A stretch of 39,371 nt of DNA from a virus: positions 1-39,371 of the IMG/VR virus record IMGVR_UViG_3300030085_002209, one strand, 5' to 3'. Positions 155-37,592 of the stretch are shown here, piece after piece. A program made the translations under genes and the position numbers. Within the stretch, counting starts at the first letter, position 1; every line of letters starts with the position of its first letter. The notes under the pieces are model-generated. The model saw nothing but the letters and a program-made list of their open reading frames with translations. It made no database searches and was not told where the DNA came from.

Positions 155-183
155 TTGTTTTATTGAATAATATTTCTTATATT
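155..183 (+). promoter_or_regulatory. Bacteroidetes-type promoter (TTG-N20-TATATT)
   Basis: AGTTG (TTG at 155-157) is followed after exactly 20 nt by TATATT (178-183) within TTCTTATATT. The same arrangement recurs seven more times in the window. It drives the gene at 209. The transcript leader carries AAAGGTT directly before the ATG, also shared with other promoter-linked genes. Confidence 0.8.
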
Positions 184-208
184 TAGATATAAATAAAAAA
201 TAAAGGTT

Positions 209-493
209 ATGACTAAAGAACAATTTTTAAATGGAACTCCTTTCTCATTAGATTATGATTACTCATCTGATGCTACTTATGTTTATAATAATCCTGGCGG
301 AAGAGATAAAGGTAGTTTAAGTAGAGAGTATAGAACTAAAGAAGGTAAAGTAGTACTATCAGATCATCTAATGAATATAGATAAGATAGGTAGAAAGATA
401 ATTACTGCTTATTGCTTTATATTAGATAGCAGAATAATAAAGAAGATTAGATTTGAAGACATGATAGAGTTTCCGGAGAAAGATAATATCTAG
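209..493 (+). CDS. Small hypothetical protein (94 aa)
   Basis: A soluble, charged protein of 94 aa rich in Tyr, Asp and Lys, without signal peptide, membrane segment or recognised motif. It has its own promoter (155-183), and the ATG is preceded by AAAGGTT, the start context seen at 823 (minus strand), 2004 (as AACGGTT) and 37624. Position outside the structural module and a dedicated promoter suggest an early or accessory role (inference). Function unknown. Confidence 0.65.
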   Translation: MTKEQFLNGTPFSLDYDYSSDATYVYNNPGGRDKGSLSREYRTKEGKVVLSDHLMNIDKIGRKIITAYCFILDSRIIKKIRFEDMIEFPEKDNI

Positions 494-498
494 TTTCC

Positions 499-613
499 GG
501 ATACCTTACATCCTCTAGACAGCAAGGTGACGGCAGTATGCTATAAGAGTGACAGTAATGTTCCCTATAGCGTCGTGAGAGCTGTCGTGAGAGCCATACC
601 TAGTCGTATATCC
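499..613 (+). ncRNA. Candidate structured RNA, GC-rich, noncoding
   Basis: This stretch is much richer in G+C than its surroundings and lies between the stop at 493 and the minus-strand gene ending at 653. Nested pairings are visible by eye: GGATA 499-503 with TATCC 609-613; GACAGC 518-523 with GCTGTC 581-586; 527-531 with 572-576 (with G-U pairs); GCTATA 540-545 with TATAGC 566-571. An 11-nt direct repeat, GTCGTGAGAGC, occurs at 572-582 and 584-594. No tRNA cloverleaf or CCA end is apparent. It may be a small phage RNA or the processed 3' end of the upstream mRNA. Strand is assumed. Confidence 0.4.
572..594. repeat. Short tandem direct repeat
   Basis: GTCGTGAGAGC occurs twice with a 12-nt period (572-582 and 584-594) in the GC-rich noncoding stretch downstream of the 209 gene. 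The second copy overlaps the 3' arm of the proposed long hairpin. Confidence 0.6.
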
Positions 614-652
614 CTCTTAGATTTTAAGTATATAGTGGTATATATGTATATA

Positions 653-823
653 TTATCTTAACTTATTCTTATAATGACCGTAAGCTATCATAGATAACAT
701 AGCTATTACAAAGGCAAAATAAGTCCAATTAGCAGCATTTGGATTTAAGATAAGAGTGAACCCTACGTAAAACAACATAACAATCATTATTACATTGATA
801 CTAAACATTAACATGTGTTTCAT
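653..823 (-). CDS. Small integral membrane protein (56 aa), the only minus-strand gene
   Basis: A two-helix membrane protein: MLMFSINVIMIVMLFYVGF and, after a short NPNAANW turn, TYFAFVIAMLSMIAYG, ending in a basic tail (HYKNKLR). The open frame could extend to 943, but I choose the ATG at 823. It is preceded by AAAGGTTAT, the start context of other promoter-linked genes. The putative extension would also overlap this gene's own promoter (850-878). It is transcribed against all its neighbours. Function unknown; candidate roles for such phage membrane peptides include superinfection exclusion or lysis control, but nothing in the sequence decides this. Confidence 0.65.
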   Translation of the reverse strand: MKHMLMFSINVIMIVMLFYVGFTLILNPNAANWTYFAFVIAMLSMIAYGHYKNKLR

Positions 824-849
824 AATATAACCTTTTAAGTATTTAAAAT

Positions 850-878
850 AATATAAGAACTTTTTGTATATAAAACAA
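850..878 (-). promoter_or_regulatory. Bacteroidetes-type promoter, minus strand (TTG-N20-TATATT)
   Basis: Read on the minus strand, AGTTG (TTG 878-876) is followed after 20 nt by TATATT (855-850) within GTTCTTATATT. Spacing and flanks match the plus-strand copies exactly. It drives the membrane-protein gene starting at 823. Confidence 0.8.
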
Positions 879-1022: not shown

Positions 1023-1454
1023 GTGCATAAATTAGATCCATATACGCTTTTTTCTATCTTCGAACAAGGAGATGAAGAAATCTATAAAGAGAATAACGTA
1101 GAAGATGTTCTTAAAAACCCTTATGTACTTATAGGTATGGTAGTAACAGGTGTAGAGAATTATCATTACATTAATAAAATGTACTCTTTGAAACATCCAG
1201 AGCATTATAAAAGAGTAAAAGGTAAGATTAAATACAAGTATTACAATAAACTTTACAACTATCTTAATAGAGTTTCACCTTTACAGTTAGATATAGTATA
1301 TAAAATAGGAGATGATTTCGAAATTGATAGATCTTTAAAGTCTATATATGATTTATTATTTTATTTTCAAGATATAGAAGATTATAATAAATGTAAGATA
1401 ATTAAAGAATATGCCGATCTTTTAATGGATAGAAAGTTGGAAACTTTAATTTAA
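1023..1454 (+). CDS. Hypothetical protein (143 aa), GTG start
   Basis: A 143-residue soluble protein, strongly Tyr/Lys-rich and predicted helical, with no recognised catalytic motif. The frame opens after a stop at 1008-1010, so the GTG at 1023 is the only reasonable start; it is preceded by ATAC, loosely like the ACGGTT start context. TATTTATA (998-1005) lies just upstream. No good TTG-N20-TATATT promoter precedes it (nearest is TATATT at 981 with a poor -33). Its 3' end contains the promoter for the next gene (1437-1465). Function unknown. Confidence 0.6.
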   Translation: MHKLDPYTLFSIFEQGDEEIYKENNVEDVLKNPYVLIGMVVTGVENYHYINKMYSLKHPEHYKRVKGKIKYKYYNKLYNYLNRVSPLQLDIVYKIGDDFEIDRSLKSIYDLLFYFQDIEDYNKCKIIKEYADLLMDRKLETLI

Positions 1455-1465
1455 TTTCTTATATT
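1437..1465 (+). promoter_or_regulatory. Bacteroidetes-type promoter (TTG-N20-TATATT)
   Basis: AGTTGG (TTG 1437-1439) and TATATT (1460-1465, within TTTCTTATATTA) are separated by 20 nt. The -33 part lies inside the last codons of the preceding gene. It drives the small membrane protein at 1494. ACGGTTATA follows at 1475. Confidence 0.8.
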
Positions 1466-1493
1466 AAAGAATTAACGGTTATATTTTAAAATT

Positions 1494-1679: not shown

Positions 1680-2003
1680 TAATCAAAGTCTCTAATATAT
1701 ACTCAGTACTCCCAATAACGTAATATAAAATAATATAGATATCAGCATATATATTTACTACGTTTGCATTTACCTCTCTATATAATAAGGTTTCTCTTAT
1801 ACGGCTATAAGCAATATGATGTAAGAATGGATGGAAGAAAAAATATATATTAGAAACTAAACTTAAATAACGCGGTGCGACTTCGCGCGTTTGCGCGGCG
1901 AGCTACGCTTTTAATAAAAAACATTAAACCCCCAAAAAAAATTAAAAAAAAGTTGGTAACTTACTATTTTATTCGTATATTATTAATATAAATTAAAACG
2001 GTT
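1680..2003. other. Gene-free 324-nt region with GC-rich hairpin and poly-A tract
   Basis: No credible open frame was seen on either strand. The first 190 nt are AT-rich. A sharply GC-rich island (about 1871-1908) then contains a perfect hairpin, CGCGC 1884-1888 with GCGCG 1893-1897 around a GTTT loop. It is followed by TTTTAATAAAAAA and A-rich runs up to the promoter at 1953. The hairpin could be a terminator for the upstream gene, but it sits about 200 nt past that stop and lacks a directly adjoining long U run. A protein-binding or replication site is equally possible. Confidence 0.5.
1953..1981 (+). promoter_or_regulatory. Bacteroidetes-type promoter (TTG-N20-TATATT)
   Basis: AGTTGG (TTG 1953-1955) and TATATT (1976-1981) are separated by 20 nt. 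It drives the lipoprotein gene at 2004, whose ATG directly follows AACGGTT. Confidence 0.8.
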
Positions 2004-2525: not shown

Positions 2526-2554
2526 TTGCTTTTTAGAATTATTTTTATTACCTT
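2526..2554 (+). promoter_or_regulatory. Probable promoter (TTG-N20-TACCTT)
   Basis: AGTTG (TTG 2526-2528) is followed after 20 nt by TACCTT (2549-2554), a match to the Bacteroidetes TAnnTTTG -7 element though not to the TATATT of the other copies. The -7 element lies in a small hairpin (ATTAC 2547-2551 with GTAAT 2556-2560). It would drive the 2610 gene and the HD-domain/sigma-factor cluster behind it. Confidence 0.5.
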
Positions 2555-2609
2555 AGTAATATTAATATTTTAATTAATAAATTTAATAAATAAATAATAT
2601 AAAATTATA

Positions 2610-3519: not shown

Positions 3520-3819
3520 ATGTTAATTTCTATTATTATTTTATCTATAGTTATATTTATTTTATTATTGGCTATACGCAATCTTCTAGTAAAAGTAGAA
3601 AAATACGAAGACGTAACTGTAGATCAAACAGAATATTTACAGAATATATCTAATGTTATTAGAGATTCACAAAAGTACCTTAACAGCCTAGATGAAAAGG
3701 GGATATTTCAATCTGATGATGAGGTCGGTTATTTTTTTGAACAATTAAAAAACGTACAAAAAGAGCTAGACCGATACATGCTCCCTGAGAATTATGGCGA
3801 GAAAGAAATCGAAAAATAA
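3520..3819 (+). CDS. Membrane-anchored coiled-coil protein (99 aa)
   Basis: Residues 1-20 (MLISIIILSIVIFILLLAIR) form one hydrophobic helix and the rest is an acidic helical region with regular hydrophobic spacing. This gives a single-pass protein with a cytoplasmic coiled coil. The frame overlaps the start of the sigma-factor gene by 26 nt (3794-3819), which suggests translational coupling. Function unknown; it could tether a phage factor at the membrane. Confidence 0.65.
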   Translation: MLISIIILSIVIFILLLAIRNLLVKVEKYEDVTVDQTEYLQNISNVIRDSQKYLNSLDEKGIFQSDDEVGYFFEQLKNVQKELDRYMLPENYGEKEIEK

Positions 3820-4498
3820 CTATTTTACTAAAGAGACCGAAGAGTATATAGTTAGATACAACAATTCAATAGATTCGGACTACCGAGCAAAGATCTTTAC
3901 TGATCATATTTACTTTCCTTTTTATAAATTAGCTGAAAATATTATTCATACTTTTAAGTTTTATTATACCGATGTAGAACGTATAGAAGATTTAAAACAT
4001 GAAGTAGTATCAATGCTATTAGAAGAAAAAATTATGAAATTTGATCCTACTAATGGAGCAAAAGCATATTCATATTTTGGAACTATAGTAAAAAGGTGGT
4101 TAATTAATTATAATAATAAAAATTATAAAAAACTTAAACAAATAGGTTCTTTCGATGATATGGAAGAATCGTATGAAGGTAGTATGAACGTAAAATTACC
4201 CGGAGGCATAACATTAAGCCAGTTTTTAGATATGTGGGTAGAAAAAGTTTACGACGATTTAGATAATATATTTATAAAAGATACTGAAAAACGAATAGCT
4301 GACGCAGTACTAACTATTTTCAAAACAAGACACGATTTAGATATTTTTAAGAAAAAAGCTCTTTATATTTACATTCGTGAAATGACAGATTGTGAAACTC
4401 CTCACTTAACTAAAGTTATTTCTATACTTAAAGACGATTTTTATCAGATATACCATAGGTACCATGATAAAGGTAAAATTATAATAAAAGAACTATAA
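3794..4498 (+). CDS. gp55: gp55-like RNA polymerase sigma factor for late transcription
   Basis: A 234-aa protein with the region-2-like core typical of T4 gp55 relatives: a helical segment with HIYFPFYKLAENI (about residues 38-50), then DLKHEVVSMLLEEKIMKFD and KAYSYFGTIVKRWLINYNNK (about 67-110), where sigma factors contact core polymerase and melt the -10 region. In T4, gp55 replaces the host sigma factor and recognises a simple -10-only late promoter. Its position directly ahead of the 25-kb structural module fits that job. The start at ATG 3794 overlaps the previous gene. The C-terminal half is less familiar, and no region 4 (-35 recognition) is visible. Confidence 0.8.
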   Translation: MARKKSKNNYFTKETEEYIVRYNNSIDSDYRAKIFTDHIYFPFYKLAENIIHTFKFYYTDVERIEDLKHEVVSMLLEEKIMKFDPTNGAKAYSYFGTIVKRWLINYNNKNYKKLKQIGSFDDMEESYEGSMNVKLPGGITLSQFLDMWVEKVYDDLDNIFIKDTEKRIADAVLTIFKTRHDLDIFKKKALYIYIREMTDCETPHLTKVISILKDDFYQIYHRYHDKGKIIIKEL

Positions 4499-4518
4499 TC
4501 TATTTATTATAAAAAGAT

Positions 4519-6898: not shown

Positions 6899-6915
6899 CA
6901 CAACTATTTATAATT

Positions 6916-9601: not shown

Positions 9602-10735
9602 ATGGCAATTTATAGAATATTTCCCGATAAAGATTCTTTTATTTTTTCTGAAACCAATACAGGTAACGCAGGAAGAGATGAAATAGTAGAAATAGCAGGC
9701 TACAAAGGAACTATAGACGGTACCGGTCAAGCAAGTCGTATAGTAACTAAATTTTTAGATAGTGAGATAGACGATGTTATTAATAATAAAGTAACTTTAG
9801 CTTTGACTAGCTCTATGAGTGCTAGCTTAAAGATGTACCTAGCAGAAGCTTCTGACCTACCTGTAGAATACTGTTTAAAAGCGTACCCAATATTCGTACC
9901 AGGAACAGGAGAATGGGATAATGGAACTGGTAAATTCGCAGATAGTCCTGTTAATAAATCAGGAGTAAGCTGGTTATTTAAAAATTCAGCACAACTAAAT
10001 GCTTGGTCTACAGCTGGATTCACATCTTTTACTACTGCTTCATTTATTTCAGGGAAAGAAGGCGGAGGTAACTGGTATACTGCTTCAAATGGAGTAGATA
10101 TGCAATTTTTCCAATCTCATAGCATATCCTCAGACCATGATATGGATATCAACGTAACTCCTGCTATTAAACAGATTTACGATGATTTACTTCCTAATAA
10201 AGGGTTTATAATTAAATTAGAGGATCAATACGAATTTTTTACCTCTGCTTCTATAAGATTAAAGTATTTTAGTAAAGATACCAATACTATATATCCTCCG
10301 TTTTTGGAAATAGGATGGGACGATAGAGTTTATACTACAGGTAGTTTGTCTGTTCTAGATACTGATATTGCTACTATAGATATAAAAAATAATAAAGGAG
10401 AATATACTGATGAAGGTAAGCAAAGATTTAGAATTACAGCTAGACCTGAATACCCAACCAGAACATTCACAACATCTTCAGTATTTTTGACAAACTTTGC
10501 TCTTCCATCTGCTTCGTATTGGGGATTAAGAGATGAAAATACAGAAGAAATGGTAGTAAACTTTAGCACAGACTTTACTAAAATAAGTTGTGATAGTAAT
10601 GGACCATTTTTTGATGTTTATATGGATGGGTTACAACCTGAAAGATATTATCGTATATTAATCAAGACTACTTTAGATAATAGTACCGTTATAGTAGATA
10701 ATAGAAACATATTTAAAGTTGTAAGAAATGGCTAG
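9602..10735 (+). CDS. Baseplate/tail structural protein with DNRLRE-like beta-sandwich
   Basis: A 377-aa protein. The first about 220 residues look like a DNRLRE-type beta-sandwich: FPDKDSFIFSE at the start, then LKMYLAEASDLPVEYCLKAY, a WDNGTGKFADSP segment and NGVDMQFFQSHSISSD leading to DMDINVTPAIKQIYDDLLPN. The C-terminal part appears to be an immunoglobulin-like or fibronectin-like domain (YRILIKTTLDNSTVIVD). It starts one base after the gp6 homologue and overlaps the next gene by 8 nt. The position in gp6-gp7/gpI order suggests a wedge or peripheral baseplate component, possibly gp8-like in role; homology to gp8 is not evident. Confidence 0.6.
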   Translation: MAIYRIFPDKDSFIFSETNTGNAGRDEIVEIAGYKGTIDGTGQASRIVTKFLDSEIDDVINNKVTLALTSSMSASLKMYLAEASDLPVEYCLKAYPIFVPGTGEWDNGTGKFADSPVNKSGVSWLFKNSAQLNAWSTAGFTSFTTASFISGKEGGGNWYTASNGVDMQFFQSHSISSDHDMDINVTPAIKQIYDDLLPNKGFIIKLEDQYEFFTSASIRLKYFSKDTNTIYPPFLEIGWDDRVYTTGSLSVLDTDIATIDIKNNKGEYTDEGKQRFRITARPEYPTRTFTTSSVFLTNFALPSASYWGLRDENTEEMVVNFSTDFTKISCDSNGPFFDVYMDGLQPERYYRILIKTTLDNSTVIVDNRNIFKVVRNG

Positions 10736-15261: not shown

Positions 15262-15276
15262 AAATATTTATAAAAG

Positions 15277-16506: not shown

Positions 16507-16552
16507 TAAAACATTAAAATAAGATATTTATATAAAAAGAAAAAAATAAAAA

Positions 16553-27460: not shown

Positions 27461-29037
27461 ATAGTGCACCAACTATATCAGGTTCTTTTACTTCAGTATC
27501 TAGTTCTATCGCTGAAGATATAGCATTTAATTTAAGGGGTGCAGTATTTACATCTTCAATCGATGGTAGTTCAACCGAATACGGCAGTATAGTTCCTACT
27601 TCAGGCTCAAATATAATAACCGATGCTCAGAATTCCTCGATTTTGGGAGGTAATCGTAACATCATTACACAAGGAGCTTCAGATTGCGCTACAATTGCAG
27701 GAGGTTCAGATAATCTGATAAGCGTATCAAACAGAACATTTATAGGTTCTGGGTGTAGCAATACTATTGCTCCTAATAGTCTTCGTTCTGCTATAGTAGG
27801 AGGATCAGGAAATACAGTAAATAGCGGTTCAATCAATGCTTTTATAGGAGCTGGTGGTTGTAACGACGTTGAAGCAGATATGGCATCGGTAGTAGGAGGA
27901 TGTAGAAACTCAGGTTCATCTGATTATTCGTTTATCGGTGGTGGTTGTGGTAACTGTATTTCAGGTTCTAACAATGCCCAGTACGGAGTTGTAGCAGGCG
28001 GTTTTTCAAACACTATCAGGGAACCATATACTTTCTTAGGCGGTGGTTCTAATAATGAAATAGTGAAAGCAGTAAATGACGTAGGATATTCAGTCTTAGT
28101 AGGAGGTCAACTTAACACAGTTGGTTTTGGCGGTGCGACATTAGTAGGAGGAGGTCAAAACGATGCTTGTGGATGTTTATCTTTTGTAGGAGGAGGTTTC
28201 TGTAACAACAATAATGGATGTTATGGAATAGTAGCAGGTGGTTGTAAAAACGATATTGCTTCTTCAACTTGTTACGGTATAGCTGTAGGAGGACAATTAA
28301 ATGAAATGTCTGGTAGCTACTCTGCAATAGTTGGAGGTAGAAGTAATAAAACTGAATCGCCTTATTCGTTTATTGGTGGAGGTTGTTCTAACCATATTAT
28401 GTCAGGTTCAGACTGCTTTGGTGTAATCGCAGGTGGACAAAATAACTGTATTTCTGGTTCAGGAGCTCCATCAGCTGATAACGGACACCAATTTATTGGG
28501 GGTGGTAAAAGTAATAAAGCAATGGAAATATTTGCTTCTGTAGTAGGAGGTAATATTAACAAAGCATGTCAGTTCTTTAGTTTTGTTGGAGGTGGAGAAA
28601 ATAACTTAACTTGCTATCATGATAATTCTTATTTCTCTGCAATCGTTGCCGGATGTAAAAATATCGTAGAAGGTGATCACGCTTTTATAGGTGGTGGTGA
28701 CAGAAACTATTCTTCAGGTAGTTCAGGAGTAGTAGTAGGTGGTCAACGTAATTCTGGTTCAGCAGAATTTGGAGGAATATTAGGAGGTAAAAATAACTGT
28801 AACCAACACGATTGTTCTTTCGTAGTAGGTTCAGATATTACTTCTGCTAGAGACTGTACTACACACGTTAATAACTTATTAGTTTCAGGGTCAACAACTG
28901 CTAATGCTATATTACAATTAACTAGAAGAACGACTAATCCAACTCCAGCAGTAGAAGGAATGGTAATAGCATCAGGATCAGCAGGAAGTAGTAAACTATA
29001 TTACTTTAATGGGTCTACTTGGAACGCATTACATTAA
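26218..29037 (+). CDS. Long repetitive tail fibre 3, two kinds of head repeat (939 aa)
   Basis: The largest fibre (939 aa). After two Ser/Gly cassettes it has a very regular block (about 135-245) of 20-23-residue units such as TAVGFEALKTNTNGSGNTSV and TAVGNIALGSDNSGDCNVAV. A second, different block (about 460-895) has about 30-residue units with the pattern x-V-x-GGxxN (SVVGGCRNSGSSDYSFIGGG, VVAGGFSNTIREPYTFLGGG). Cys recurs at matching places in many units (GGC, GNCIS). The end (LQLTRRTTNPTPAVEGMVIA to YYFNGSTWNALH) resembles the C-terminal caps of fibre proteins in many phages and prophages. Trimeric beta-solenoid fibre inferred. Confidence 0.75.
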   Translation: MGLKVGDIDITGALNLSGSFAISGSSGAFTGSFSGDGSGLTKVTGSWSGFRTGDAQLSGSLSVSSSITASAFSGDGSGLTGVTGEWDGTFTGSAEISGSLRVEGRVSQIGLGNSSYFGFGAGESDDKSNNGNSAFGHNAFKNNETGAQNTAVGFEALKTNTNGSGNTSVGYITLTSNTGQFNTAVGNIALGSDNSGDCNVAVGNAALFGNTSGDLNTAIGSCALIANNSGNNNTALGFNAGGHNTGSGANNIFIGYNAGPTSGSSVSNKLYIHNNSGSALIEGDFSTSSVTINGSITASGNISSSGTIFASKFESAGASNETISFNDNLNITGDITASGHISSSGTITGNSITVNDDGYNFTKHNMRMTPQSTGILLFSGVTTAKFEGIVSASGAITASAYKGDGSGLTNLPAFYSAPTISGSFTSVSSSIAEDIAFNLRGAVFTSSIDGSSTEYGSIVPTSGSNIITDAQNSSILGGNRNIITQGASDCATIAGGSDNLISVSNRTFIGSGCSNTIAPNSLRSAIVGGSGNTVNSGSINAFIGAGGCNDVEADMASVVGGCRNSGSSDYSFIGGGCGNCISGSNNAQYGVVAGGFSNTIREPYTFLGGGSNNEIVKAVNDVGYSVLVGGQLNTVGFGGATLVGGGQNDACGCLSFVGGGFCNNNNGCYGIVAGGCKNDIASSTCYGIAVGGQLNEMSGSYSAIVGGRSNKTESPYSFIGGGCSNHIMSGSDCFGVIAGGQNNCISGSGAPSADNGHQFIGGGKSNKAMEIFASVVGGNINKACQFFSFVGGGENNLTCYHDNSYFSAIVAGCKNIVEGDHAFIGGGDRNYSSGSSGVVVGGQRNSGSAEFGGILGGKNNCNQHDCSFVVGSDITSARDCTTHVNNLLVSGSTTANAILQLTRRTTNPTPAVEGMVIASGSAGSSKLYYFNGSTWNALH

Positions 29038-29057
29038 AATAAATAACAACTAAAAAA

Positions 29058-29366
29058 ATGCAACATACTTGGAAAATATACGAACTTGAAAGAAATCTTT
29101 CTGACGGAGTAGTAAATAAAGTTACTTACGGGTGTGAATCATTAGATTCTGGTTTTACTACTAGAACTATAGGAAATTTTCAAATTTCAGGTTCAGCCGA
29201 AGATGCTGGCTTTATAGCTTATGAATCGCTTAATGAAAATAATGTTTTAGAATGGTTAGATTCTAACGTTGATAAAAATGCTATAGAAAATGAAAACTCT
29301 AATAAATTAGCAGGTTCTATCGCAGCAGCTTCTAAAATTACTTCTGGAAACGGTATTCCTTGGTAA
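29058..29366 (+). CDS. Small conserved phage protein, copy A (DUF7936-like)
   Basis: A 102-aa protein beginning WKIYELERNLSDGVV and ending SGNGIPW. The pattern W-x-I-x-x-L-x-R-x-x-x-D-G at the N-terminus and G-x-P-W at the C-terminus fits a small family frequent in marine phages (DUF7936 as I recall it; not verified). It is a clear paralogue of the gene at 29425 (RNLSDG, DVNAIE and GVPW shared). It follows the last fibre gene by 20 nt and has no promoter of its own, so it should be expressed with the late module. It may be virion-associated; function unknown. Confidence 0.65.
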   Translation: MQHTWKIYELERNLSDGVVNKVTYGCESLDSGFTTRTIGNFQISGSAEDAGFIAYESLNENNVLEWLDSNVDKNAIENENSNKLAGSIAAASKITSGNGIPW

Positions 29367-29369
29367 TAG

Positions 29370-29398
29370 TTGTTTTTAAATAATTTTTTAACTATATT
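29370..29398 (+). promoter_or_regulatory. Bacteroidetes-type promoter (TTG-N20-TATATT)
   Basis: AGTTG (TTG 29370-29372) and TATATT (29393-29398) are separated by 20 nt in the gap between the two paralogues. It drives copy B at 29425 and probably the glycosyltransferase behind it. Confidence 0.78.
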
Positions 29399-29424
29399 AT
29401 ATAAAACTAAATAAATTTTAAACT

Positions 29425-29739
29425 ATGATTCATAGATGGTATATAGATAATTTAAAAAGAAATCTATCAGACGGTTTAATAACTACTGCTTCATATCACT
29501 GTAAAAGTAGAGAAGATGATATGTTTGCTTCCATAACTCATGGAGATTTTAATCTACCTTCTAAAAACTCTTCAGATGCAGACTTCGTACAATACGAAAA
29601 TCTAACTCCAAATATTGTTTTAGGATGGATTACAGGTAGTTTAGATGTAAACGCTATAGAAACAGCAAATTCAGCTTCAGTAGCAGCCAAAATAGCAGCT
29701 CATAATGCTAAAACTGAAGATACCGGAGTACCTTGGTAG
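29425..29739 (+). CDS. Small conserved phage protein, copy B (DUF7936-like)
   Basis: A 104-aa paralogue of the gene at 29058: WYIDNLKRNLSDGLITTASY at the start, then FVQYENLTPNIVLGWITGSL and SLDVNAIETANS, ending TEDTGVPW. The two copies have diverged substantially while keeping the W, RNLSDG, DVNAIE-like and PW positions. Unlike copy A it has a dedicated promoter (29370-29398), which suggests different timing. Function unknown. Confidence 0.65.
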   Translation: MIHRWYIDNLKRNLSDGLITTASYHCKSREDDMFASITHGDFNLPSKNSSDADFVQYENLTPNIVLGWITGSLDVNAIETANSASVAAKIAAHNAKTEDTGVPW

Positions 29740-29757
29740 ATTATAAATTAAATTAAT

Positions 29758-30633
29758 ATGACGGTTATATTTCACGTAGAAGGTGGCCTAGGTAAGCATA
29801 TCATGGCTACTGCACTTCTAAAAGTTATACACAAAAAACACTCAAAAGACGATATTCACGTAGTATGTTCATATCCTGATGTCTTTAAACATAATCCACT
29901 AGTTAAAAAAGTTCATGCAAATGGAAAGCATGGTGATTTTTATACTAGGTACATAAAAGATAAAGAAAGTAACTGTAAACTATACTTTAGCGATCCTTAT
30001 ACTCATTCGGACTTTATATTAGAACAAGACCATTTATTTAATATATGGGCTAAACAATGGGGATTTGAATACGAGGGAGAATCACCTCAAATATATTTAA
30101 CTGAAGCAGAGATACAATATTTTAAACCTTTTTATAAAACTGATAAACCTATCTTAGCAATACAGCCTAACGGAGGTCCACAAAATCAAGGATATAATTA
30201 TTCATGGACTAGAGATATACCCGAACCTGCTATGTTAAAAGTTATAGAAGAATTTAAAAAAGATTATTCTATAGTTCATATTAAGCGAGACGACCAGAAA
30301 AAATACCCCGATACTCTACATGCTTTAGATGGATTTAGAAGTATAGGTATTTTATTACAACTAGCAAATAAAAGATTACTTATCGATTCATTTGCACAGC
30401 ATCTAGCTACAGCTTTTAATCTTCCTTCTACTGTCTGTTGGGTTACAACTAAACCTGAAGTTTTCGGATACGAATTACATTCTAATATCAGAGCTAATAA
30501 ATTTAACTTACCAGTAGAGTTTCCAAATAATTTATATCAACCGTTTAATCTTGCTCAAGATATTTCTTCTTGCCCTTACAGTAAATTAGAAGATGTATTC
30601 GATGTCGATAAAATTATCAAATCTCTTAAATAA
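29758..30633 (+). CDS. GT9-like glycosyltransferase (heptosyltransferase-type)
   Basis: A 291-aa protein with the layout of glycosyltransferase family 9. The N-terminal Rossmann part has FHVEGGLGKHIMATALLKVI, the usual G-x-G-x-x motif after the first strand, and later DIHVVCSYPDVFKHNP. The C-terminal donor-binding part has LAIQPNGGPQNQGYNYSWTR and RLLIDSFAQHLATAFNLPST with a DSFxxHLA pattern that replaces the usual D-T/S-G-x-x-H-x-A. Family members transfer heptose or related sugars from nucleotide donors to lipopolysaccharide. In a phage it could modify host surface sugars or glycosylate virion proteins such as the Ser/Thr-rich fibres next door (inference). It ends with TAATG coupling to the next gene. 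Confidence 0.72.
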   Translation: MTVIFHVEGGLGKHIMATALLKVIHKKHSKDDIHVVCSYPDVFKHNPLVKKVHANGKHGDFYTRYIKDKESNCKLYFSDPYTHSDFILEQDHLFNIWAKQWGFEYEGESPQIYLTEAEIQYFKPFYKTDKPILAIQPNGGPQNQGYNYSWTRDIPEPAMLKVIEEFKKDYSIVHIKRDDQKKYPDTLHALDGFRSIGILLQLANKRLLIDSFAQHLATAFNLPSTVCWVTTKPEVFGYELHSNIRANKFNLPVEFPNNLYQPFNLAQDISSCPYSKLEDVFDVDKIIKSLK

Positions 30634-31115
30634 TGACTGATCCTACTTGGACTTACCAAGGTCTACCTATTTTGTCTATTGAAGGTATGCCTAAAGATAC
30701 TTACGGTTTTATCTATCAAGTTACTCATATTCCTACTGGTAGAAAGTATTTAGGAAAAAAAGTATTATTTTTTGAAAGAAATAAAAAATTAGGTAAAAAA
30801 GAACTACAAGCATTAAAAGAAGAAAGAAAAGCTAAAGGTATAGGAGGAAGAGTACCCTTAAAAAAGAAAGTTATAAAAGAATCAGATTGGGTAACTTATT
30901 ATGGTTCTCAAAAAGAGATCCTTGAATTAGTAAAGAACGGTAATAAAAAAGATTTCAGGAGAGAAATCCTTAAATATGTAACTGACAAAAAACAATTAAC
31001 ATATTTTGAATGTAAATACCTATTTATAAATGAGGTATTGGAGACTCGTAATAATTATATTAACGATAATATCCTCGGTAAATTTTACAGAAAAGATTTT
31101 TTAAATGAAAATTAA
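30633..31115 (+). CDS. GIY-YIG nuclease family protein (Seg-like)
   Basis: A 160-aa protein with a GIY-YIG module. GFIYQVTHIPTGRKYLGKK (about residues 25-43) carries the GIY (as FIY) and YIG (as YLG) elements. DWVTYYGSQKEI (about 88-99) follows, and the candidate catalytic Glu lies in LTYFECKYLF (Glu about 125). The C-terminus NNYINDNILGKFY fits related phage proteins. T4 Seg enzymes and intron endonucleases such as I-TevI belong to this superfamily. It is a free-standing gene here; whether it mobilises the intron at 19887 is unknown. A 30-residue Lys-rich insert separates the two halves. Confidence 0.72.
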   Translation: MTDPTWTYQGLPILSIEGMPKDTYGFIYQVTHIPTGRKYLGKKVLFFERNKKLGKKELQALKEERKAKGIGGRVPLKKKVIKESDWVTYYGSQKEILELVKNGNKKDFRREILKYVTDKKQLTYFECKYLFINEVLETRNNYINDNILGKFYRKDFLNEN

Positions 31116-31407
31116 AGATATATTATTAGAAGAATACGAAAAAGGTAACGTAAAGCTTATGGGCGATGTTATCTTACCGATTGGTAAGCAAATGGTACTA
31201 CAAGCTGAAGAGGATACATATAATAGAGGTCTGTTAGTTACAAACAATAAAGATAAAAGCTACGATATAGCATATTGGGCTGATAAATTCGAACCTTACC
31301 CAATAGAAGTAGAAATAGACGGTAAATCAGTCTCTAAAGATGCTAAAGTAATTAAACTATTATTTCACCCTGAAATGGATGAATCTACCTCAAAAGATAT
31401 AAAATGA
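31105..31407 (+). CDS. Hypothetical protein with possible capsid-targeting leader (100 aa)
   Basis: A 100-aa protein whose N-terminus MKIKDILLEEYEKGNVKLMG resembles T4 capsid-targeting leaders (a hydrophobic/charged decapeptide ending L-x-E). The rest has a compact beta-prone core (YDIAYWADKFEPYPIEVEID) with no known motif. It overlaps the neighbours on both sides (11 nt and 4 nt), so it belongs to an operon with the nuclease and the following genes. Function unknown. Confidence 0.6.
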   Translation: MKIKDILLEEYEKGNVKLMGDVILPIGKQMVLQAEEDTYNRGLLVTNNKDKSYDIAYWADKFEPYPIEVEIDGKSVSKDAKVIKLLFHPEMDESTSKDIK

Positions 31408-31952
31408 TTAAAATTAAAGACATAGTAGGGCTTCCATCTTTAACTTATCATTTAGAAAACGATCTCTCGTTATATGAGAATGTCTATCGTTATTCAAGTG
31501 ATAAATTTATACAACTATTTGCTGAAGCAAGAGATGCTTGGAGAGACGGTTATATACAGTTAAACGAAGAAGATACTAAATTACTAGAAGAAACTAATAT
31601 AGGTGAGTACGGGGTATTCGAAGGAGAAAAAGTACCTTTAGATTTACCTATGGTAGACGAAGCAGAGTATAAAGGTAAGAATGTAGCTTTAAATAAACCA
31701 AAAAGAGGAGGACCTAAAAAGTTTTACGTCTATGTTAAGAATCCAAAAACGGGAAATGTTAAAAAAGTAAATTTCGGAGATAGCGGAAACCTTTCCGTTA
31801 AGTTAAATGAGCCAGGAGCTAGAGCTTCTTTCGCAGCTAGACATAAATGTGCTCAAAAGAAAGATAAAACTAAACCTGGTTATTGGTCCTGTAATATAGG
31901 TCGTTATTGGAAATCATTAGGAGGTTCTAGAAATTTCAGTGGATACTGGTAG
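31404..31952 (+). CDS. Conserved marine-phage protein with YWSCNIGRYW-type C-terminus (182 aa)
   Basis: A 182-aa protein starting MIKIKDIVGLPSLTYHL. The C-terminal 85 residues form a conserved basic module: KKFYVYVKNPKTGNVKKVNF, then ARASFAARHKCAQKKDKTKP and GYWSCNIGRYWKSLGG. I recognise this C-terminal pattern as common in structural and packaging regions of marine phages, but its function is unknown. The Cys/His content is too low to assert a zinc site. It is coupled by 4-nt overlap to the preceding gene and by 14-nt overlap to the next. Confidence 0.6.
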   Translation: MIKIKDIVGLPSLTYHLENDLSLYENVYRYSSDKFIQLFAEARDAWRDGYIQLNEEDTKLLEETNIGEYGVFEGEKVPLDLPMVDEAEYKGKNVALNKPKRGGPKKFYVYVKNPKTGNVKKVNFGDSGNLSVKLNEPGARASFAARHKCAQKKDKTKPGYWSCNIGRYWKSLGGSRNFSGYW

Positions 31953-32190
31953 ACCATATACAGAAAAAGGCGAAATAAGAACTTTTTTAGTTGATACTAA
32001 AGAAGAAGAATTAGTTTGGCATAGAGATTACGAAGATAGAATTATAGAACCACTTCACGAAACTGATTGGAAATTTCAATACGATAACAATACTCCGGAG
32101 AGTTTAAAACGACTATTTATTAGAAAGGGTGTATATCATAGGTTGATTAAAGGCTCTGGAGATTTAAAATTAAAAGTAATAAAACTGTAA
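31939..32190 (+). CDS. Small conserved phage protein (83 aa)
   Basis: An 83-aa protein with the compact pattern EIRTFLVDTKEEELVWHRDY followed by DRIIEPLHETDWKFQYDN, and ending YHRLIKGSGDLKLKVIKL. The HRD-E-R and H-R arrangement looks like a small beta-barrel (cupin-like) fold, but this is only an impression. It overlaps the previous gene by 14 nt and is followed immediately by the 44-aa basic gene. Function unknown. Confidence 0.6.
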   Translation: MDTGRPYTEKGEIRTFLVDTKEEELVWHRDYEDRIIEPLHETDWKFQYDNNTPESLKRLFIRKGVYHRLIKGSGDLKLKVIKL

Positions 32191-32325
32191 ATGGCTAAAA
32201 TAGTACTTAGCGATTACTTAGGTTCTAAGAGTAGAAAAAGACCAGGTATACACGCTAAAAGTAAAACATCTAAGCTTAAAAATAGTAGAAACTATAAAAA
32301 AGCTTATAAAGGACAAGGTAGATGA
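32191..32325 (+). CDS. Very small basic protein (44 aa)
   Basis: ATG 32191 directly follows the stop of the previous gene and the frame ends at TGA 32323-32325, overlapping the next ATG (32322). The 44-aa product is extremely basic (SKSRKRPGIHAKSKTSKLKN, ending YKKAYKGQGR). Similar short RPGxHAKxKxSK proteins recur in marine phages. It is probably a nucleic-acid-binding peptide. Being packed head-to-tail with its neighbours supports it as a real gene despite its length. Confidence 0.7.
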   Translation: MAKIVLSDYLGSKSRKRPGIHAKSKTSKLKNSRNYKKAYKGQGR

Positions 32326-32753
32326 AACTTTCACAAATCATATTAGAGGGACCCCTAGAATATGATCCTGATTTTAATCGTGAGATAGATAAGATACAAG
32401 ATCAGGGCGGAAAGTACTTAGGTTCAGGCGATTATGGTTCAGTATACCTTTTAAAAGGAAAGGCAGTTAAAGTAACAACAGATTCTATTGAATTAGATCA
32501 CGCTGAAAAACTTAAAGGCAAAAAAACTAATAATTTTGTTTATATTTTTGACGTTAATAGGTTAAATAATAAACTAGGAATTATTACAATGGAGGTTATG
32601 GGAGAATACAAAGGGGATATTCCGGAAGATTTTATTGATAAATTAGAAAAAGAAGCTGTTAGATTTAATATAGATCCAACAGAGTTAGACATAAGACCTG
32701 ATAATTTCATGGTACATCCTAAATCAGGTAAGTTAAAAATGACTGACGTTTAG
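32322..32753 (+). CDS. Miniature protein-kinase-like protein with leader peptide (143 aa)
   Basis: A 143-aa protein with signs of a kinase fold. A glycine-rich loop LGSGDYGSVYLLKG is at 33-46, a VAIK-like lysine in AVKVT (Lys50), a hinge-like ITMEVMGEYKG at about 88-98, a catalytic-loop-like DIRPDNFMV (Asp123, Asn128) and a terminal MTDV in the place of DFG. The usual C-lobe helices after DFG are missing, so it is much shorter than normal kinases (about 250 aa). It may be a minimal kinase or a pseudokinase. The N-terminus MKLSQIILE-G matches a T4-type capsid-targeting leader. It overlaps the preceding gene by 4 nt. Confidence 0.6.
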   Translation: MKLSQIILEGPLEYDPDFNREIDKIQDQGGKYLGSGDYGSVYLLKGKAVKVTTDSIELDHAEKLKGKKTNNFVYIFDVNRLNNKLGIITMEVMGEYKGDIPEDFIDKLEKEAVRFNIDPTELDIRPDNFMVHPKSGKLKMTDV

Positions 32754-32782
32754 TTGGTAAATACAATATTTTTTCATATATT
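32754..32782 (+). promoter_or_regulatory. Bacteroidetes-type promoter (TTG-N20-TATATT)
   Basis: AGTTGG (TTG 32754-32756, directly after the stop of the kinase-like gene) and TATATT (32777-32782) are separated by 20 nt. It drives the primase gene at 32802 and probably the replication and nucleotide-enzyme operon behind it. Confidence 0.8.
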
Positions 32783-32801
32783 ATAGAGTTAACTATGAAG
32801 T

Positions 32802-33728
32802 ATGGATTATAGTTTTTTATTAGGTTCTATAGAAAATATACTAGGAAAAAGCAATAAAAGAGCAAGAGATAATTACGCTTTTCATTGCCCTTTTTGCAAC
32901 CATCGAAAGCCTAAGTTAGAAATCAACATGGCTACAAATGATGAAGGTAAAAACTTTTGGGAATGTTGGGTATGTAAAACTAGAGGACAGTCAATATTTT
33001 CTCTTTTAAGACAACTGAAAGTACCTAAAGTTGAAGCTAATGAAGTACTCAAGTATGTTAAAAGAGGTAAGAAGTATGAGTATAAAAATACGGAAGTAGC
33101 AGAATTACCAAAAGAATTTCAACTACTTTACTCAGCTTCCAGTACTTCTATTATTGCTAATAAAGTTAAAAAATATTTATATGAACGAGGACTTACCGAC
33201 AATGATTTTATTAAATATAGTATTGGATACACAACAGGTGGAGACTATGGAGGAAGAATCATTATCCCAAGCTATTCTTCATCCAATAGGCTCAACTATT
33301 TTGTTGGGAGAACTTATGAGAGAGCTTACTTTAAATATAAAAATCCCGAAACTTCCAAGGACATAGTATTTTTTGAAAACTTAATTAACTGGAATCAACC
33401 TATTATTTTATGTGAAGGAGCATTTGATGCTATTGCCATTCGTAGAAATGCAGTACCTATATTAGGTAAAAGTCTTTCCCCTTCATTATTAAAAAAAATT
33501 ATTACTTCTAAACTAAAAGATATCTACATAGCTTTAGATAAAGATGCTCAAAAAGATGCATTAGAAATAGCAGAAAATTTACTTAACTTAGGTAAGAGGG
33601 TCTTCCTAGTTGATTTAAAACAAAAAGACCCTAGCGAGATGGGCTTCGAAGCTTTTACTCGTCTTATACAATCAGCAGATGAATTAGACTTATCAAGTTT
33701 AATGCTGCATAAAATGGAAGCCATATGA
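32802..33728 (+). CDS. DNA primase (DnaG-type: zinc ribbon and Toprim)
   Basis: A 308-aa primase. A zinc ribbon with Cys29, Cys32, Cys55 and Cys58 (HCPFCNHRK, WECWVCKTRG) comes first. The catalytic core has GGRIIIPSYSSSNRLNYFVG and a Toprim domain with Glu205 in IILCEGAFDAIAI and the Asp-x-Asp pair in ALDKDAQKDAL (Asp246, Asp248). It would make RNA primers for the phage replisome. It is shorter than bacterial DnaG and has no helicase domain, like T4 gp61-type phage primases. It is the first gene after a host-type promoter and overlaps the downstream nuclease gene by 4 nt. Confidence 0.88.
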   Translation: MDYSFLLGSIENILGKSNKRARDNYAFHCPFCNHRKPKLEINMATNDEGKNFWECWVCKTRGQSIFSLLRQLKVPKVEANEVLKYVKRGKKYEYKNTEVAELPKEFQLLYSASSTSIIANKVKKYLYERGLTDNDFIKYSIGYTTGGDYGGRIIIPSYSSSNRLNYFVGRTYERAYFKYKNPETSKDIVFFENLINWNQPIILCEGAFDAIAIRRNAVPILGKSLSPSLLKKIITSKLKDIYIALDKDAQKDALEIAENLLNLGKRVFLVDLKQKDPSEMGFEAFTRLIQSADELDLSSLMLHKMEAI

Positions 33729-34507
33729 TAAGGCAAGGAACTAATATCCTAAAAGAAAATTCAAAAAATAGATTAAATTTTAAACCTGAATTAAAACAAA
33801 TTAATTTTTTAGATCGTAGAGTCTACAAAAGGGACGAAGGAGTTTATTATCCTTCTGTTACCACTATACTACAATATATGCCAAAAAATAAATTTTTTGA
33901 TAACTGGTTAAAAGATGTAGGTCATAACGCTGATCTTATAATGAGAAAAGCAGGAAAGGAAGGTACACAAGTTCATGAAGCAGCAGAAGCTTTAGTAAAA
34001 GGTGAAGAAGTCAATTGGATGGATGATTACGGTAACGCTAAATATTCTCAAATAGTATGGGAAATGATCTTAAAATTTCATGATTTTTGGTCTACTTATA
34101 AACCTAAACTTATATCTACCGAAGAATTTGTATTTTCAGATAAATTTAAGTATGCCGGTACTGCCGATTTATTAGTTGAAATGGACGGTGAAATTTGGTT
34201 ATTAGATTTAAAAACTTCAAACAATCTACATAGATCGTATGATCTTCAACTTGCAGCATACGCTAAAGCAATCGAAGAAGCAAAAGGAATAAAAATACAA
34301 AGAACAGGAATAATTTGGTTAAAAGCTAATACTAGATCAGCATCTAAAAAGAAAGGTGTTTACCAAGGTAAAGGTTGGCAAATTAAAATTATAGATAAAA
34401 TAGATTATAATTTTGACTTATTTCAGACGATTTATAAACTTTACTTATTAGATAACCCTAAGACTGAACCTATTTATAAGAGTTACCCAACAACTCTTAA
34501 AATATGA
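33725..34507 (+). CDS. PD-(D/E)XK family exonuclease (RecB/Cas4-like)
   Basis: A 260-aa nuclease. YYPSVTTILQYMP is followed by GTQVHEAAEALVKG (with His84), Glu133/Glu134, and the active-site set Asp148 in YAGTADLLVEM, Asp161-x-Lys163 in IWLLDLKTS, then QLAAYAKAIEEA (motif with Gln175 and Tyr179). This is the RecB-type nuclease fold without the FeS-binding cysteines of Cas4. It may act in recombination-dependent replication or DNA degradation together with the adjacent primase. It overlaps both neighbours by 4 nt. Confidence 0.85.
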   Translation: MIRQGTNILKENSKNRLNFKPELKQINFLDRRVYKRDEGVYYPSVTTILQYMPKNKFFDNWLKDVGHNADLIMRKAGKEGTQVHEAAEALVKGEEVNWMDDYGNAKYSQIVWEMILKFHDFWSTYKPKLISTEEFVFSDKFKYAGTADLLVEMDGEIWLLDLKTSNNLHRSYDLQLAAYAKAIEEAKGIKIQRTGIIWLKANTRSASKKKGVYQGKGWQIKIIDKIDYNFDLFQTIYKLYLLDNPKTEPIYKSYPTTLKI

Positions 34508-35439
34508 AAAAAATAATAGAATGGCATCAAAATATGGTTTTTAATTTTATGGCCAAGCTTAACTTAGGAGTATATGAAATAGCTTGGATATCATGGCTGA
34601 AAGGTTTATTGATGGGAGCTGTATTTACACTACTATGTAGCTGTGGAGTACAGTTTCAATATGGAGTATTAAATACGGCAGGACAAATAGACGGTATATA
34701 CCAGACTCCAAATACTAAAGTAGATACTATTAGCTCAGTTTTTGATTTAAAAAGGAAGCTCAGAAACGACTTTAATTTTAGGTACGATTTTGCAACTTAT
34801 GCAATGAACCAACCTTATTCTTTCTACTGGAATAATCCTAGATTAGAGGGTATTTGGCGACCATATAATAGGTTTGATGTTTATTTTCATAGCAACTGGT
34901 TTTGGAACGATTGGGCTTTTAATTACCCTTTCCATCATACTTGGGGTTGGAATAATTGGTATAGTTGGAATAGACCATATTACTACTACGGATGGATTAG
35001 ACCTTATAGTCCATGGAATAATTGGTATCAAGGACCTTTTAATAATCAGAGTTACAATATAGTCTATAATGCTAGTAGAAGAGGTAGCTTAACTTCTAAT
35101 CTTAATTCAAGTATTTCTAATAGAATTCAAACTAATAGAGTATTAAACGTAAGTAAAAGACCAGTAAACAATAATGCTGTAAATACATTAATTAATAATT
35201 ATAAACCTAATAACAACTATAATTATAAACCTAGTAACAATAATATTATAATTGTAAAACCTAATAACAATAATAATTGGAAACCGAGTAATAATAATAA
35301 TAACTATAAACCTAGTAATAACTATTCTAGACCAAGCAATAATTACTCAAGACCAAGTAACAACTATTCTAAACCTAGTAATAGCAGTATGTCAAGACCA
35401 TCATCTTCATCTAGAGGTGGTAAAATAAATAGAGAATAA
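34504..35439 (+). CDS. Membrane/lipoprotein-like protein with Tyr/Trp/Asn-rich repeats (311 aa)
   Basis: A 311-aa protein in three parts. The N-terminus (MKKIIEWHQNMVFNFMAKLN) precedes a hydrophobic segment WISWLKGLLMGAVFTLLCSC with a possible lipobox Cys47. A middle part is extremely Tyr/Trp/Asn-rich (WNNWYSWNRPYYYYGWIRPY). The C-terminal about 110 residues are low complexity, built of Asn runs and KPSNN / SRPSNNY repeats. Tyr/Trp-rich lipoproteins of this style are common in Flavobacteria, so host origin of the middle part is likely. The opening segment resembles small phage membrane proteins, so a fusion is possible. It overlaps the nuclease stop by 4 nt. It is likely displayed on the envelope; function unknown. 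Confidence 0.6.
   Translation: MKKIIEWHQNMVFNFMAKLNLGVYEIAWISWLKGLLMGAVFTLLCSCGVQFQYGVLNTAGQIDGIYQTPNTKVDTISSVFDLKRKLRNDFNFRYDFATYAMNQPYSFYWNNPRLEGIWRPYNRFDVYFHSNWFWNDWAFNYPFHHTWGWNNWYSWNRPYYYYGWIRPYSPWNNWYQGPFNNQSYNIVYNASRRGSLTSNLNSSISNRIQTNRVLNVSKRPVNNNAVNTLINNYKPNNNYNYKPSNNNIIIVKPNNNNNWKPSNNNNNYKPSNNYSRPSNNYSRPSNNYSKPSNSSMSRPSSSSRGGKINRE
35203..35400 (+). repeat. Asn/Pro/Ser low-complexity coding repeat
   Basis: Imperfect tandem units encoding [K/R]P-[S/N]-NN(N)Y, at the DNA level variants of AAACCTAGTAATAAC and AGACCAAGTAACAAC. It lies in the 3' third of the gene at 34504. Such A/T-rich tandem units are prone to length change by slippage. Confidence 0.65.
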
Positions 35440-36368
35440 TGATAGAATTACTGAGCCTTATACGAGAACAAATTGAAAAACCTAAAGCAGTAGTAATGGC
35501 TGGTGGTGGAGGAACAGGTAAAACATTTCTCTTGAATCAGTTAGATCTAGATTCTTTGACTCAATTTAATCCTGACAAATACGTCGAAGATCCTAACCAT
35601 CCATTTTACAATAAACTAACACCAGCTACTAACCAAGTAGGTAAGGACGTTGAAACTGCTGCAGAAAAAGGAATTAGTTTTGTTTGGGATACTACTGCTT
35701 CTAATCCGTCTAAAATACAAAAACTTTTAGATAGAGGATATGACGTATATATGATTATGGTTTATGCTCATCCTATGATTTCTTATGCTGCTAATTTTGA
35801 AAGAAAAAGATCTCTTCCTTCTATAGCCGTCTTCTCAACTTGGCGTAATGTATATCAACTAATAAGTAAATATAGAGAAATGTTAGGAGATAATTTATCT
35901 ATATACGTTAGCGATAGAGGCGGTAAATATAAAAAAGAAGTTGAAGAGTTCAATAAAGCAGCAGAGAGAGGAGTAAATGGTGTAAAAGAGTATTTAAAAG
36001 TTTATAACGAAAAAAATCAAGCTGGTAAATCAACTTTCTTTGAACCAGTAAAGATGAACTCAGAAGAGGAAAAAGCTTTTAACGATGCAGTAATAGATAT
36101 AGATTATGATAGAAATAATAGGTCTGAAGATAAAGCAATTAAACAAGCTTTTTTAAAACTATATCAAAAAAACGGCGTAGGACCAGGAGATGACCAATTG
36201 GTAAAAGCTAGAGACGAATTTAGACTTAAAAGAGAAAAATCTCAAAAAAGATTAGATGACGTATTGAAAAATATAGCTGAAATGTTATTTAGTTCTGATT
36301 TTCAAGAACTCCTTAAAACATCTTCTGTTGCAGATATTGATAAAAAAGTACAAAATTTCTTATCATGA
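35439..36368 (+). CDS. P-loop kinase, zeta-toxin-like, with leader peptide
   Basis: A 309-aa protein with a Walker A motif AGGGGTGKT (about residues 21-29) after strand KAVVM. NPDKYVEDPNHPFYNKL and GISFVWDTTASNPSKIQKLL (an acceptor-site-like Asp-Thr-Thr) follow, then YDVYMIMVYAHPMISYAANF. This order resembles zeta-toxin and related small-molecule kinases. The C-terminal 130 residues are charged and helical. The start MIELLSLIRE-Q matches the [I/L]-x-E leader pattern. No epsilon-like antitoxin is next to it. It overlaps the following NTase gene by 4 nt, so a joint role in nucleotide or sugar-nucleotide metabolism is possible. Confidence 0.7.
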   Translation: MIELLSLIREQIEKPKAVVMAGGGGTGKTFLLNQLDLDSLTQFNPDKYVEDPNHPFYNKLTPATNQVGKDVETAAEKGISFVWDTTASNPSKIQKLLDRGYDVYMIMVYAHPMISYAANFERKRSLPSIAVFSTWRNVYQLISKYREMLGDNLSIYVSDRGGKYKKEVEEFNKAAERGVNGVKEYLKVYNEKNQAGKSTFFEPVKMNSEEEKAFNDAVIDIDYDRNNRSEDKAIKQAFLKLYQKNGVGPGDDQLVKARDEFRLKREKSQKRLDDVLKNIAEMLFSSDFQELLKTSSVADIDKKVQNFLS

Positions 36369-37555
36369 TAGCGTTATACCCAGGAGCATTTAAACCACCT
36401 CACAGAGGGCATTTTGAAGTAGTAAAAAGTTTACTACAAGGTAATCATGGAGGTAAAGTTTATGATATAGATAATTATGCTTCAGCAGGTTCTAGTGTAT
36501 TAAAAGGAGATAGTGATAAATTACAAAAAATTCGAAAAGTTTTAGTATTTATAGGAGAAGGAGGAAGAAATGGTATAACTAGAGGTGAATCTACTAAAGT
36601 ATGGAAAATATATGCTAAATATATTCCTGGAGTAGTAATAATGGACGGAGGAAAAAATCCAATGTTGACAGCTAAAGATTATGCCAAAGCAAACCAACAA
36701 GAAAAATTTTATGCTGTAACAGGAGTTAGATCAGAAGAAGATTTACCGGATCTTAAAAGAGTTACAACTTTTAAAAATAGAGATAATGTACAAGGGTTAG
36801 TAATTCCATCTGCTGAAGGTTCAAAAGTTAGAGCAACTGATTTTAGAAAAGCAATCCTTTCAGGTAACTTAGATGAAGTTTTAGATTTTTTTCCTAGTGA
36901 ATTATCAAAAGAAGAAATTTTAAATATTATAAGTATGTTAAAGTCAAGTATTATAGCGGAAAAAATGAGCGACGATTTGGATAACGTTATGGAAAATATT
37001 TTCAAAACCGAAGGGTCATCAGGAACTGCAACAGCACCTAAAAGTATCATACGCTCTGAAGATAGAGATAAGTTATTAAAAGTATTTACTCAACTAAGAA
37101 AAACTTTAGATCCTGAAACATTTGAATTAATATTTAATCAAAATCATATTAGAATACAAATTAAAGATATTGACTTAAAGATAGGATTCGATTATACCCC
37201 TTTTATGGCATCTCTTTTAGAATATATGATTAACGAAGGACATAATATAGTGCCCCTTCCTGAAGTTAAAATTAAGAGAGATATGGTTGAATCATCTGAT
37301 TTTTTCGGTAAAACAGCTTATTATGAACCTACTAAGCAAGAAGTAGTTTTGTATGTTGAAGGTCGGCATCCTAAAGATGTAATGAGATCATTTGCTCATG
37401 AAATGATTCACCATAAACAAAATATTGAAGGTAGGTTAGGTAAAATTAGTACAACTGATACAAATAAAGACGATAATCTACTAGAACTAGAAAAAGAAGC
37501 TTATTTAGAAGGTAATATTGCTTTTAGAAACTGGGAAGACTCAGTAAAAAATTAA
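36365..37555 (+). CDS. Nucleotidyltransferase fused to an HExxH metallopeptidase-like domain
   Basis: A 396-aa two-domain protein. Residues 1-190 form a cytidylyltransferase/NMN-adenylyltransferase-like domain: YPGAFKPPHRGHFEVV with H13-x-G-H16, a loop with VRSEEDLPDL, and SKVRATDFRKAILSG, similar to the ISxTxIR motif. A linker follows, then a C-terminal domain (about 225-396) with MRSFAHEMIHHKQNIEG carrying H345-E346-x-x-H349 and a downstream Glu378 in LELEKEAYLEG, as in gluzincin-type zinc peptidases. The first domain alone has the normal family length. The combination is unusual. It is coupled to the P-loop kinase upstream by 4-nt overlap. Confidence 0.72.
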   Translation: MIALYPGAFKPPHRGHFEVVKSLLQGNHGGKVYDIDNYASAGSSVLKGDSDKLQKIRKVLVFIGEGGRNGITRGESTKVWKIYAKYIPGVVIMDGGKNPMLTAKDYAKANQQEKFYAVTGVRSEEDLPDLKRVTTFKNRDNVQGLVIPSAEGSKVRATDFRKAILSGNLDEVLDFFPSELSKEEILNIISMLKSSIIAEKMSDDLDNVMENIFKTEGSSGTATAPKSIIRSEDRDKLLKVFTQLRKTLDPETFELIFNQNHIRIQIKDIDLKIGFDYTPFMASLLEYMINEGHNIVPLPEVKIKRDMVESSDFFGKTAYYEPTKQEVVLYVEGRHPKDVMRSFAHEMIHHKQNIEGRLGKISTTDTNKDDNLLELEKEAYLEGNIAFRNWEDSVKN

Positions 37556-37563
37556 TTAAAAAG

Positions 37564-37592
37564 TTGGATAATTGTATGGAATTTCTTATATT
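37564..37592 (+). promoter_or_regulatory. Bacteroidetes-type promoter (TTG-N20-TATATT)
   Basis: AGTTGG (TTG 37564-37566) and TATATT (37587-37592, within TTTCTTATATTTA) are separated by 20 nt. It drives the HAD gene at 37624; AAAGGTTAT precedes the ATG. Confidence 0.8.

Follow-up and report, generated by a model that had tools for sequence, protein, structure and literature searches.

A rigidly spaced promoter class, probably of early/middle type, in a T4-like phage of Flavobacteriia

Which polymerase reads a set of nearly identical, rigidly spaced promoter-like sites in a phage genome, and do these sites reveal the host? This question is raised by a virus record of 39,371 bases (32% G+C), analysed here over its whole length and called the window. 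A sequence-only reading had described eight sites in which AGTTG is followed, after exactly 20 nt, by a second box. All eight were present as described:

155-183 (+), promoter TTG-N20-TATATT, probably early/middle class, before ORF 209-493; matrix score 32.1
850-878 (-), promoter TTG-N20-TATATT, probably early/middle class, before the ATG at 823 (56-aa ORF); 21.8
1437-1465 (+), promoter, probably early/middle class, before ORF 1494-1679; 28.3
1953-1981 (+), promoter, probably early/middle class, before ORF 2004-2525; 23.8
2526-2554 (+), off-consensus promoter (TACCTT), heading the gene run of phosphohydrolase and putative sigma factor; 23.2
29370-29398 (+), promoter, probably early/middle class, before ORF 29425-29739; 20.2
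32754-32782 (+), promoter, probably early/middle class, before the DNA primase gene; among the top eight matrix scores
37564-37592 (+), promoter, probably early/middle class, before the deoxyribonucleotidase gene; 26.9

The window is a T4-like phage fragment, collinear with Flavobacterium phage vB_FspM_immuto_2-6A (immuto below), a T4-like reference relative with annotated Gp20 and Gp23 homologues. Its gene order (phosphohydrolase, sigma-like protein, gp25, baseplate wedge, tail proteins, NAD synthetase, primase, exonuclease, deoxyribonucleotidase) parallels immuto 77-111 kb. In addition, a 64-kb contig with a 98% identical stretch spanning window positions 7220-28245 shares the last three promoters of the window and has one further promoter past the window end.

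Seven of the eight sites are exact AGTTG-N20-TATATT and the site at 2526 carries TACCTT, as had been claimed, and the location just upstream of genes was borne out by an ATG about 19-55 nt downstream of every site. The exact motif occurs 7 times on both strands of the window, against a mean of 0.17 and a maximum of 1 in second-order Markov sequences; other spacings from 14 to 26 gave at most one match each, and the reversed pattern, used as control, gave 0. A position weight matrix trained on 42 immuto sites alone and then run over the window placed the eight sites at ranks 1-8 (scores 20.2-32.1), and simulated windows reached the score of the eighth-ranked site 0.04 times per window. The ninth hit, at 10631 (+), scores 16.7 and lies within a gene, and the tenth scores 13.8. 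The reported absence of sites from 2.6 to 29.3 kb is thus correct as far as good matches are concerned; the degenerate site at 10631, however, is a full motif in relatives, so that the late block of this lineage is not strictly motif-free. Its counterparts are complete TTG-N20-TATATT sites at immuto 85184 and in another relative, inside a late gene and just upstream of the next ORF, and may be an internal promoter or reflect coding conservation. We conclude that a large phage very probably uses the eight sites as promoters, all of one rigidly spaced type.

The same class is found across the relatives of the window. The plus strand of immuto holds 39 TTG-TATATT pairs at N20 and 0-4 at other spacings; these sites lie mostly about 20-40 nt before genes, mostly non-late ones, reach their highest density at 60-77 kb, where small genes form an array, and also precede SSB, primase, FolE and GroES. 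A peak at one spacing is likewise seen in 80 related loci, and most of the 28 long contigs examined have TTG-N20-TATATT in excess, with a bias in strand (52 versus 3, for example). Before genes of T4-like loci that were not selected by the motif, it occurs 33 times forward and 0 times in reverse, and the primase promoter is kept in all 16 relatives with upstream sequence. Multiple near-identical promoters thus precede non-structural genes in a T4-like genome, as is characteristic of T4-like pre-replicative promoters. At least 120 viral stretches contain the extended pattern AGTTG-N16-TTCn-TATATTnAGGTAT, with up to 12 copies per stretch among the matches listed. The profile of 403 distinct sites reads AAAWAGTTG-N16-TTCnTATATTTAGGTAT, in which AGTTG, TTC, TA and TT were imposed by the search pattern and the A-tract, A at -5, GG and TAT were free; since some loci were fetched with a GGTAT-bearing pattern, its downstream letters are somewhat inflated. 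A at -5 was present in 88% of the immuto sites, gathered without the GGTAT-bearing pattern. In the lineage consensus, an A-tract and AGTTG (about -33) are followed by a spacer fixed at 20 nt, whose last letters are TTCn, and by TATATTTA(GG)TAT, which runs into the expected start. No matrix excess was seen in unrelated Flavobacterium and Cellulophaga phages. As judged by sequence comparison, the N20 motif is lineage-specific and common to many T4-like phages of Flavobacteria.

The sites had been taken to match the Bacteroidetes primary sigma pattern and, in this way, to point to the host. Promoters of this sigma (sigma-ABfr, TTTG/TAnnTTTG) indeed share TTG near -33 and TAnnTT near -7 with the phage sites, at about the right distance, and ordinary host primary-sigma promoters, read by unmodified E-sigma-A through the TTG/TAnnTTTG match, would account for this likeness and for TTG-N20-TAHHTTTG in the distant relative Mel-JY01. 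However, the phage sites have no TTTG at the -7 box, a rigid N20 and a strong -33, whereas F. johnsoniae promoters have a weak -33 and near-invariant T-12 A-11 T-8 T-7 T-6 G-5 (PMC6847099). T-6 G-5 is found at 0/8 window sites, TTG-N20-TAHHTTTG has a count of 0 in the window, and among the 403 phage sites -5 is G in 1% and A in 89%. TAHHTTTG precedes genes 289 times forward versus 127 in reverse in 80 Flavobacteriia loci, but 6 versus 25 times in T4-like loci, where it is depleted; correspondingly, forward and reverse counts of TG after TAHHTT are 266/96 in hosts and 2/23 in T4-like loci. Moreover, Flavobacteriia loci weakly favour TTG at N19 (19/3), and 15 whole host genomes gave no motif excess (7 hits versus 12 reversed-control hits). 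The alternative sigma motifs of F. psychrophilum (sigma-54, TAnnTTGY and CGT; PMC9723704) were also considered as the identity of the N20 class and did not match. These comparisons with host genomes, unrelated phages and alternative sigmas indicate that the N20 motif is not a standard host promoter, and we regard its reading by an unmodified host sigma as improbable. Of the proposed match, TTG around -33 and TAnnTT therefore stand, but T-6 G-5 does not. The phage is one of Flavobacteriia, but the motif shows no excess in hosts or in unrelated Flavobacterium phages, and kinship among phages is a better guide to the host than the N20 motif. By its letters, this putative promoter class resembles the host promoter code and consistently breaks it at one key letter.

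Late genes are marked by another motif, TATTTATA. It stands before 16 of 62 immuto late genes, against 0.6 expected, including those for TerL, gp20, sheath, tube, hub and tape measure, among others. Upstream of genes in T4-like loci it occurs 82 times forward and 0 times in reverse, at a median of 19 nt before the ATG in the related loci. In the window, TATTTATA is present inside genes too; the candidate late promoters and the sigma-like gene are:

3794-4498 (+), gene for a probable gp55-like late sigma factor of 234 aa, carried by hundreds of related contigs
4501-4508 (+), candidate late promoter, TATTTATT variant, before ORF 4519
6905-6912 (+), candidate late promoter TATTTATA, before ORF 6916
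15265-15272 (+), candidate late promoter TATTTATA, before ORF 15277
16525-16532 (+), candidate late promoter TATTTATA, before ORF 16553; score 18.3, joint best of the window
22031-22038 (+), candidate late promoter TATTTATA, before ORF 22052; score 18.3, joint best of the window
38741-38748 (+), candidate late promoter TATTTATA, before ORF 38768

T4 late promoters are TATAAATA and are read by gp55. The phage resembles T4 in having a -10-like motif before virion genes together with a gp55-like sigma in the genome; the difference is that TATTTATA is the reverse complement of the T4 form. The separate late promoter class that had been postulated thus gained support, both from the motif that marks late genes and from the gp55-like sigma encoded in the window. 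At some sites in relatives the two motifs are joined, with TTG 24-26 nt before TATTTATA.

The assignment of ORF 3794-4498 comes mainly from structure. Its sequence weakly matches Pfam Sigma70_r2 at E 0.053 and phrog_234 (late sigma) at E 2.9, with E 0.5 for the immuto ortholog, and a PDB sequence search gave no sigma match. The top structural match of its AlphaFold model (pLDDT 74.5) is T4 gp55 (7d7c_F; Z 9.8, rmsd 6.0, 125/137 residues aligned), and sigma factors make up most of the next rows; VIA-align cautions that helical proteins can give Z values below about 13. Foldseek alone gave nothing significant for the model (E above 2), and the gp55-like label is therefore held short of final confidence. 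The model thus gives good but not final confidence in a gp55-like sigma with a sigma region 2 fold. The C-terminal sliding-clamp-binding motif of the gp55 family is not kept in all T4-family phages (PMC2988020). Around this gene, most of 50 sigma loci have an N20 site that departs from the consensus (TACCTT, TAACTT or TATCTT), about 1.1-1.4 kb upstream, so that TACCTT of the site at 2526 looks like a conserved feature. Many relatives have a second N20 site 237-249 nt upstream of the sigma gene, inside the preceding gene, which is absent in the window.

Taken together, we consider it likely that the eight sites are early/middle (pre-replicative) promoters of a T4-like Flavobacteriia phage, where timing and start sites are inferred; early and middle are not separable here, and the class carries a joint label. 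Because TAHHTTTG is depleted upstream of phage genes, early transcription probably proceeds through the N20 class, unless a polymerase is injected; the class is then probably active at entry and served by host polymerase, possibly with an injected or early phage factor. A partial search, over nine immuto proteins, recognised no phage RNA polymerase. Host RNA polymerase core with primary sigma, or a phage-altered form of it, would fire the N20 promoters, and the absence of T-6 G-5 would be compensated by the strong contact at -33 together with the A-tract upstream, the TTC extension and the discriminator. The 3794 gene would then yield the gp55-like sigma that directs polymerase to TATTTATA late promoters, a presumed pairing. 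In such a division, the N20 class would serve early and middle genes, and TATTTATA with the gp55-like sigma the late genes. In T4 itself, a single host polymerase serves three classes of promoter (PMC2988021, PMC2988020). Like the 'uber' UP/-35/TGn/-10 early promoters of T4, N20 sites are many strong, similar promoters before pre-replicative genes, and both have an upstream element and extra conserved letters (PMC2988021). Unlike the N20 class, most T4 early promoters fit the host consensus very well; the frame of the N20 class is a Bacteroidetes-like TTG/TAnnTT whose spacer is fixed at 20 nt and which lacks the host T-6 G-5. Against the early/middle explanation, it would be odd for unmodified host sigma-A to read promoters that have lost G-5, and Foldseek matches the sigma model weakly. 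We found no transcript data for these phages in the literature.

Other readers of the N20 sites have to be weighed against this explanation. In a middle-type arrangement, a MotA/AsiA-like or other phage factor would alter host sigma, and AGTTG at fixed spacing would replace the usual contacts while TTTG goes unread. The single fixed spacing with conserved spacer letters, the restriction to one lineage and the depletion of TAHHTTTG before phage genes agree with this, and it could also allow host promoter shut-off; however, no such factor was identified, nor was another early promoter class found that could express it first. We regard it as possible but rather unlikely; it overlaps with the phage-altered branch of the early/middle explanation. 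Much less plausible is that the gp55-like sigma itself reads the N20 sites. The two do co-occur (17 of 28 contigs have the sigma, and the others may be fragments), but late genes are marked by a different motif, T4 gp55 is the counterpart of sigma domain 2 only (PMC2988020), and the gene run of the sigma itself opens with the N20 class. Coincidental AT-rich repeats without promoter function, to which the base composition of the window would lend itself, have a negligible chance of being correct in view of the single-spacing peak, strand bias and orthologous conservation, and their chance component is already refuted.

How may G-5 have been lost? Mel-JY01, which has the sigma, carries TTG-N20-TAHHTTTG 8 times forward and 0 times in reverse upstream of genes. 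TTTG in the same N20 frame suggests that the N20 class descends from a host-sigma promoter and that loss of G-5 is derived. This genome (PP395634, 'Microcystis phage Mel-JY01') encodes a gp55-like sigma and a primase of flavophage type at 36-38% identity; such genes together with Bacteroidetes-type promoters make the recorded cyanobacterial host look doubtful. A speculative extension, to which we give a rather low probability, is that the T4-like flavophage lineage recoded its early promoters off G-5 and avoids host-type boxes, giving a promoter-level code of self and non-self. If so, a phage factor or modified template could silence host TAnnTTTG promoters while sparing the phage. Guanine modification via the DpdA pathway is a candidate trigger of this recoding. 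Immuto 18607-37015 has an annotated 7-deazaguanine DNA modification set (QueC/D/E, FolE, QueF and DpdA). A search of 17 records found DpdA in 13, and it was not found in Mel-JY01, which retains TTTG, but this contrast involves one outgroup only, and GG directly after the box speaks against the trigger. In addition, record G003, possibly a fragment, has A-5 in 19/19 sites and no DpdA was found in it.

We found no promoter map for T4-like Bacteroidetes phages in the open-access literature searched. With the N20 and TATTTATA motifs, transcription units of many environmental phage contigs could be annotated as early or late, and the missing G-5 raises a testable question, namely how a polymerase can be captured by a phage that does not conform to its -7 box.

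Some N20 promoters overlap hairpins. PMC4503421 cites PeSLs as composite early promoter/terminator cassettes of T4-type phages. Similar to that description, 11 of 42 immuto sites and most primase promoters of relatives have a terminator-like hairpin that overlaps the promoter; different from it, the N20-class hairpin contains the -33 TTG, and its U-run is the spacer end. No strong hairpin was seen at the eight window sites, which thus do not have the stem-loop fused to a promoter that defines a PeSL. A hairpin as a general N20 feature was rejected, as a fold of -8 kcal/mol or lower is reached by only 4.0% of the 403 sites versus 0.6% of shuffled ones.

Several smaller observations concern leaders and neighbouring genes. 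GGTTAT occurs in the leaders of five of the eight promoters (205, 832 on the minus strand, 1477, 2000 and 37618), at or shortly before the start codon, and in 99 of the 403 related leaders; it is possibly a translation or mRNA-stability element. In the tail region, a Group I intron (Rfam RF00028, 91.6 bits) was detected at 19914-20188 (+), at the end of ORF 18240-19931, and the 339-nt gap between this ORF and the next is without a long ORF. Finally, the adjacent genes 29058-29366 and 29425-29739 both belong to PHROG 7802, and the second has its own N20 promoter.
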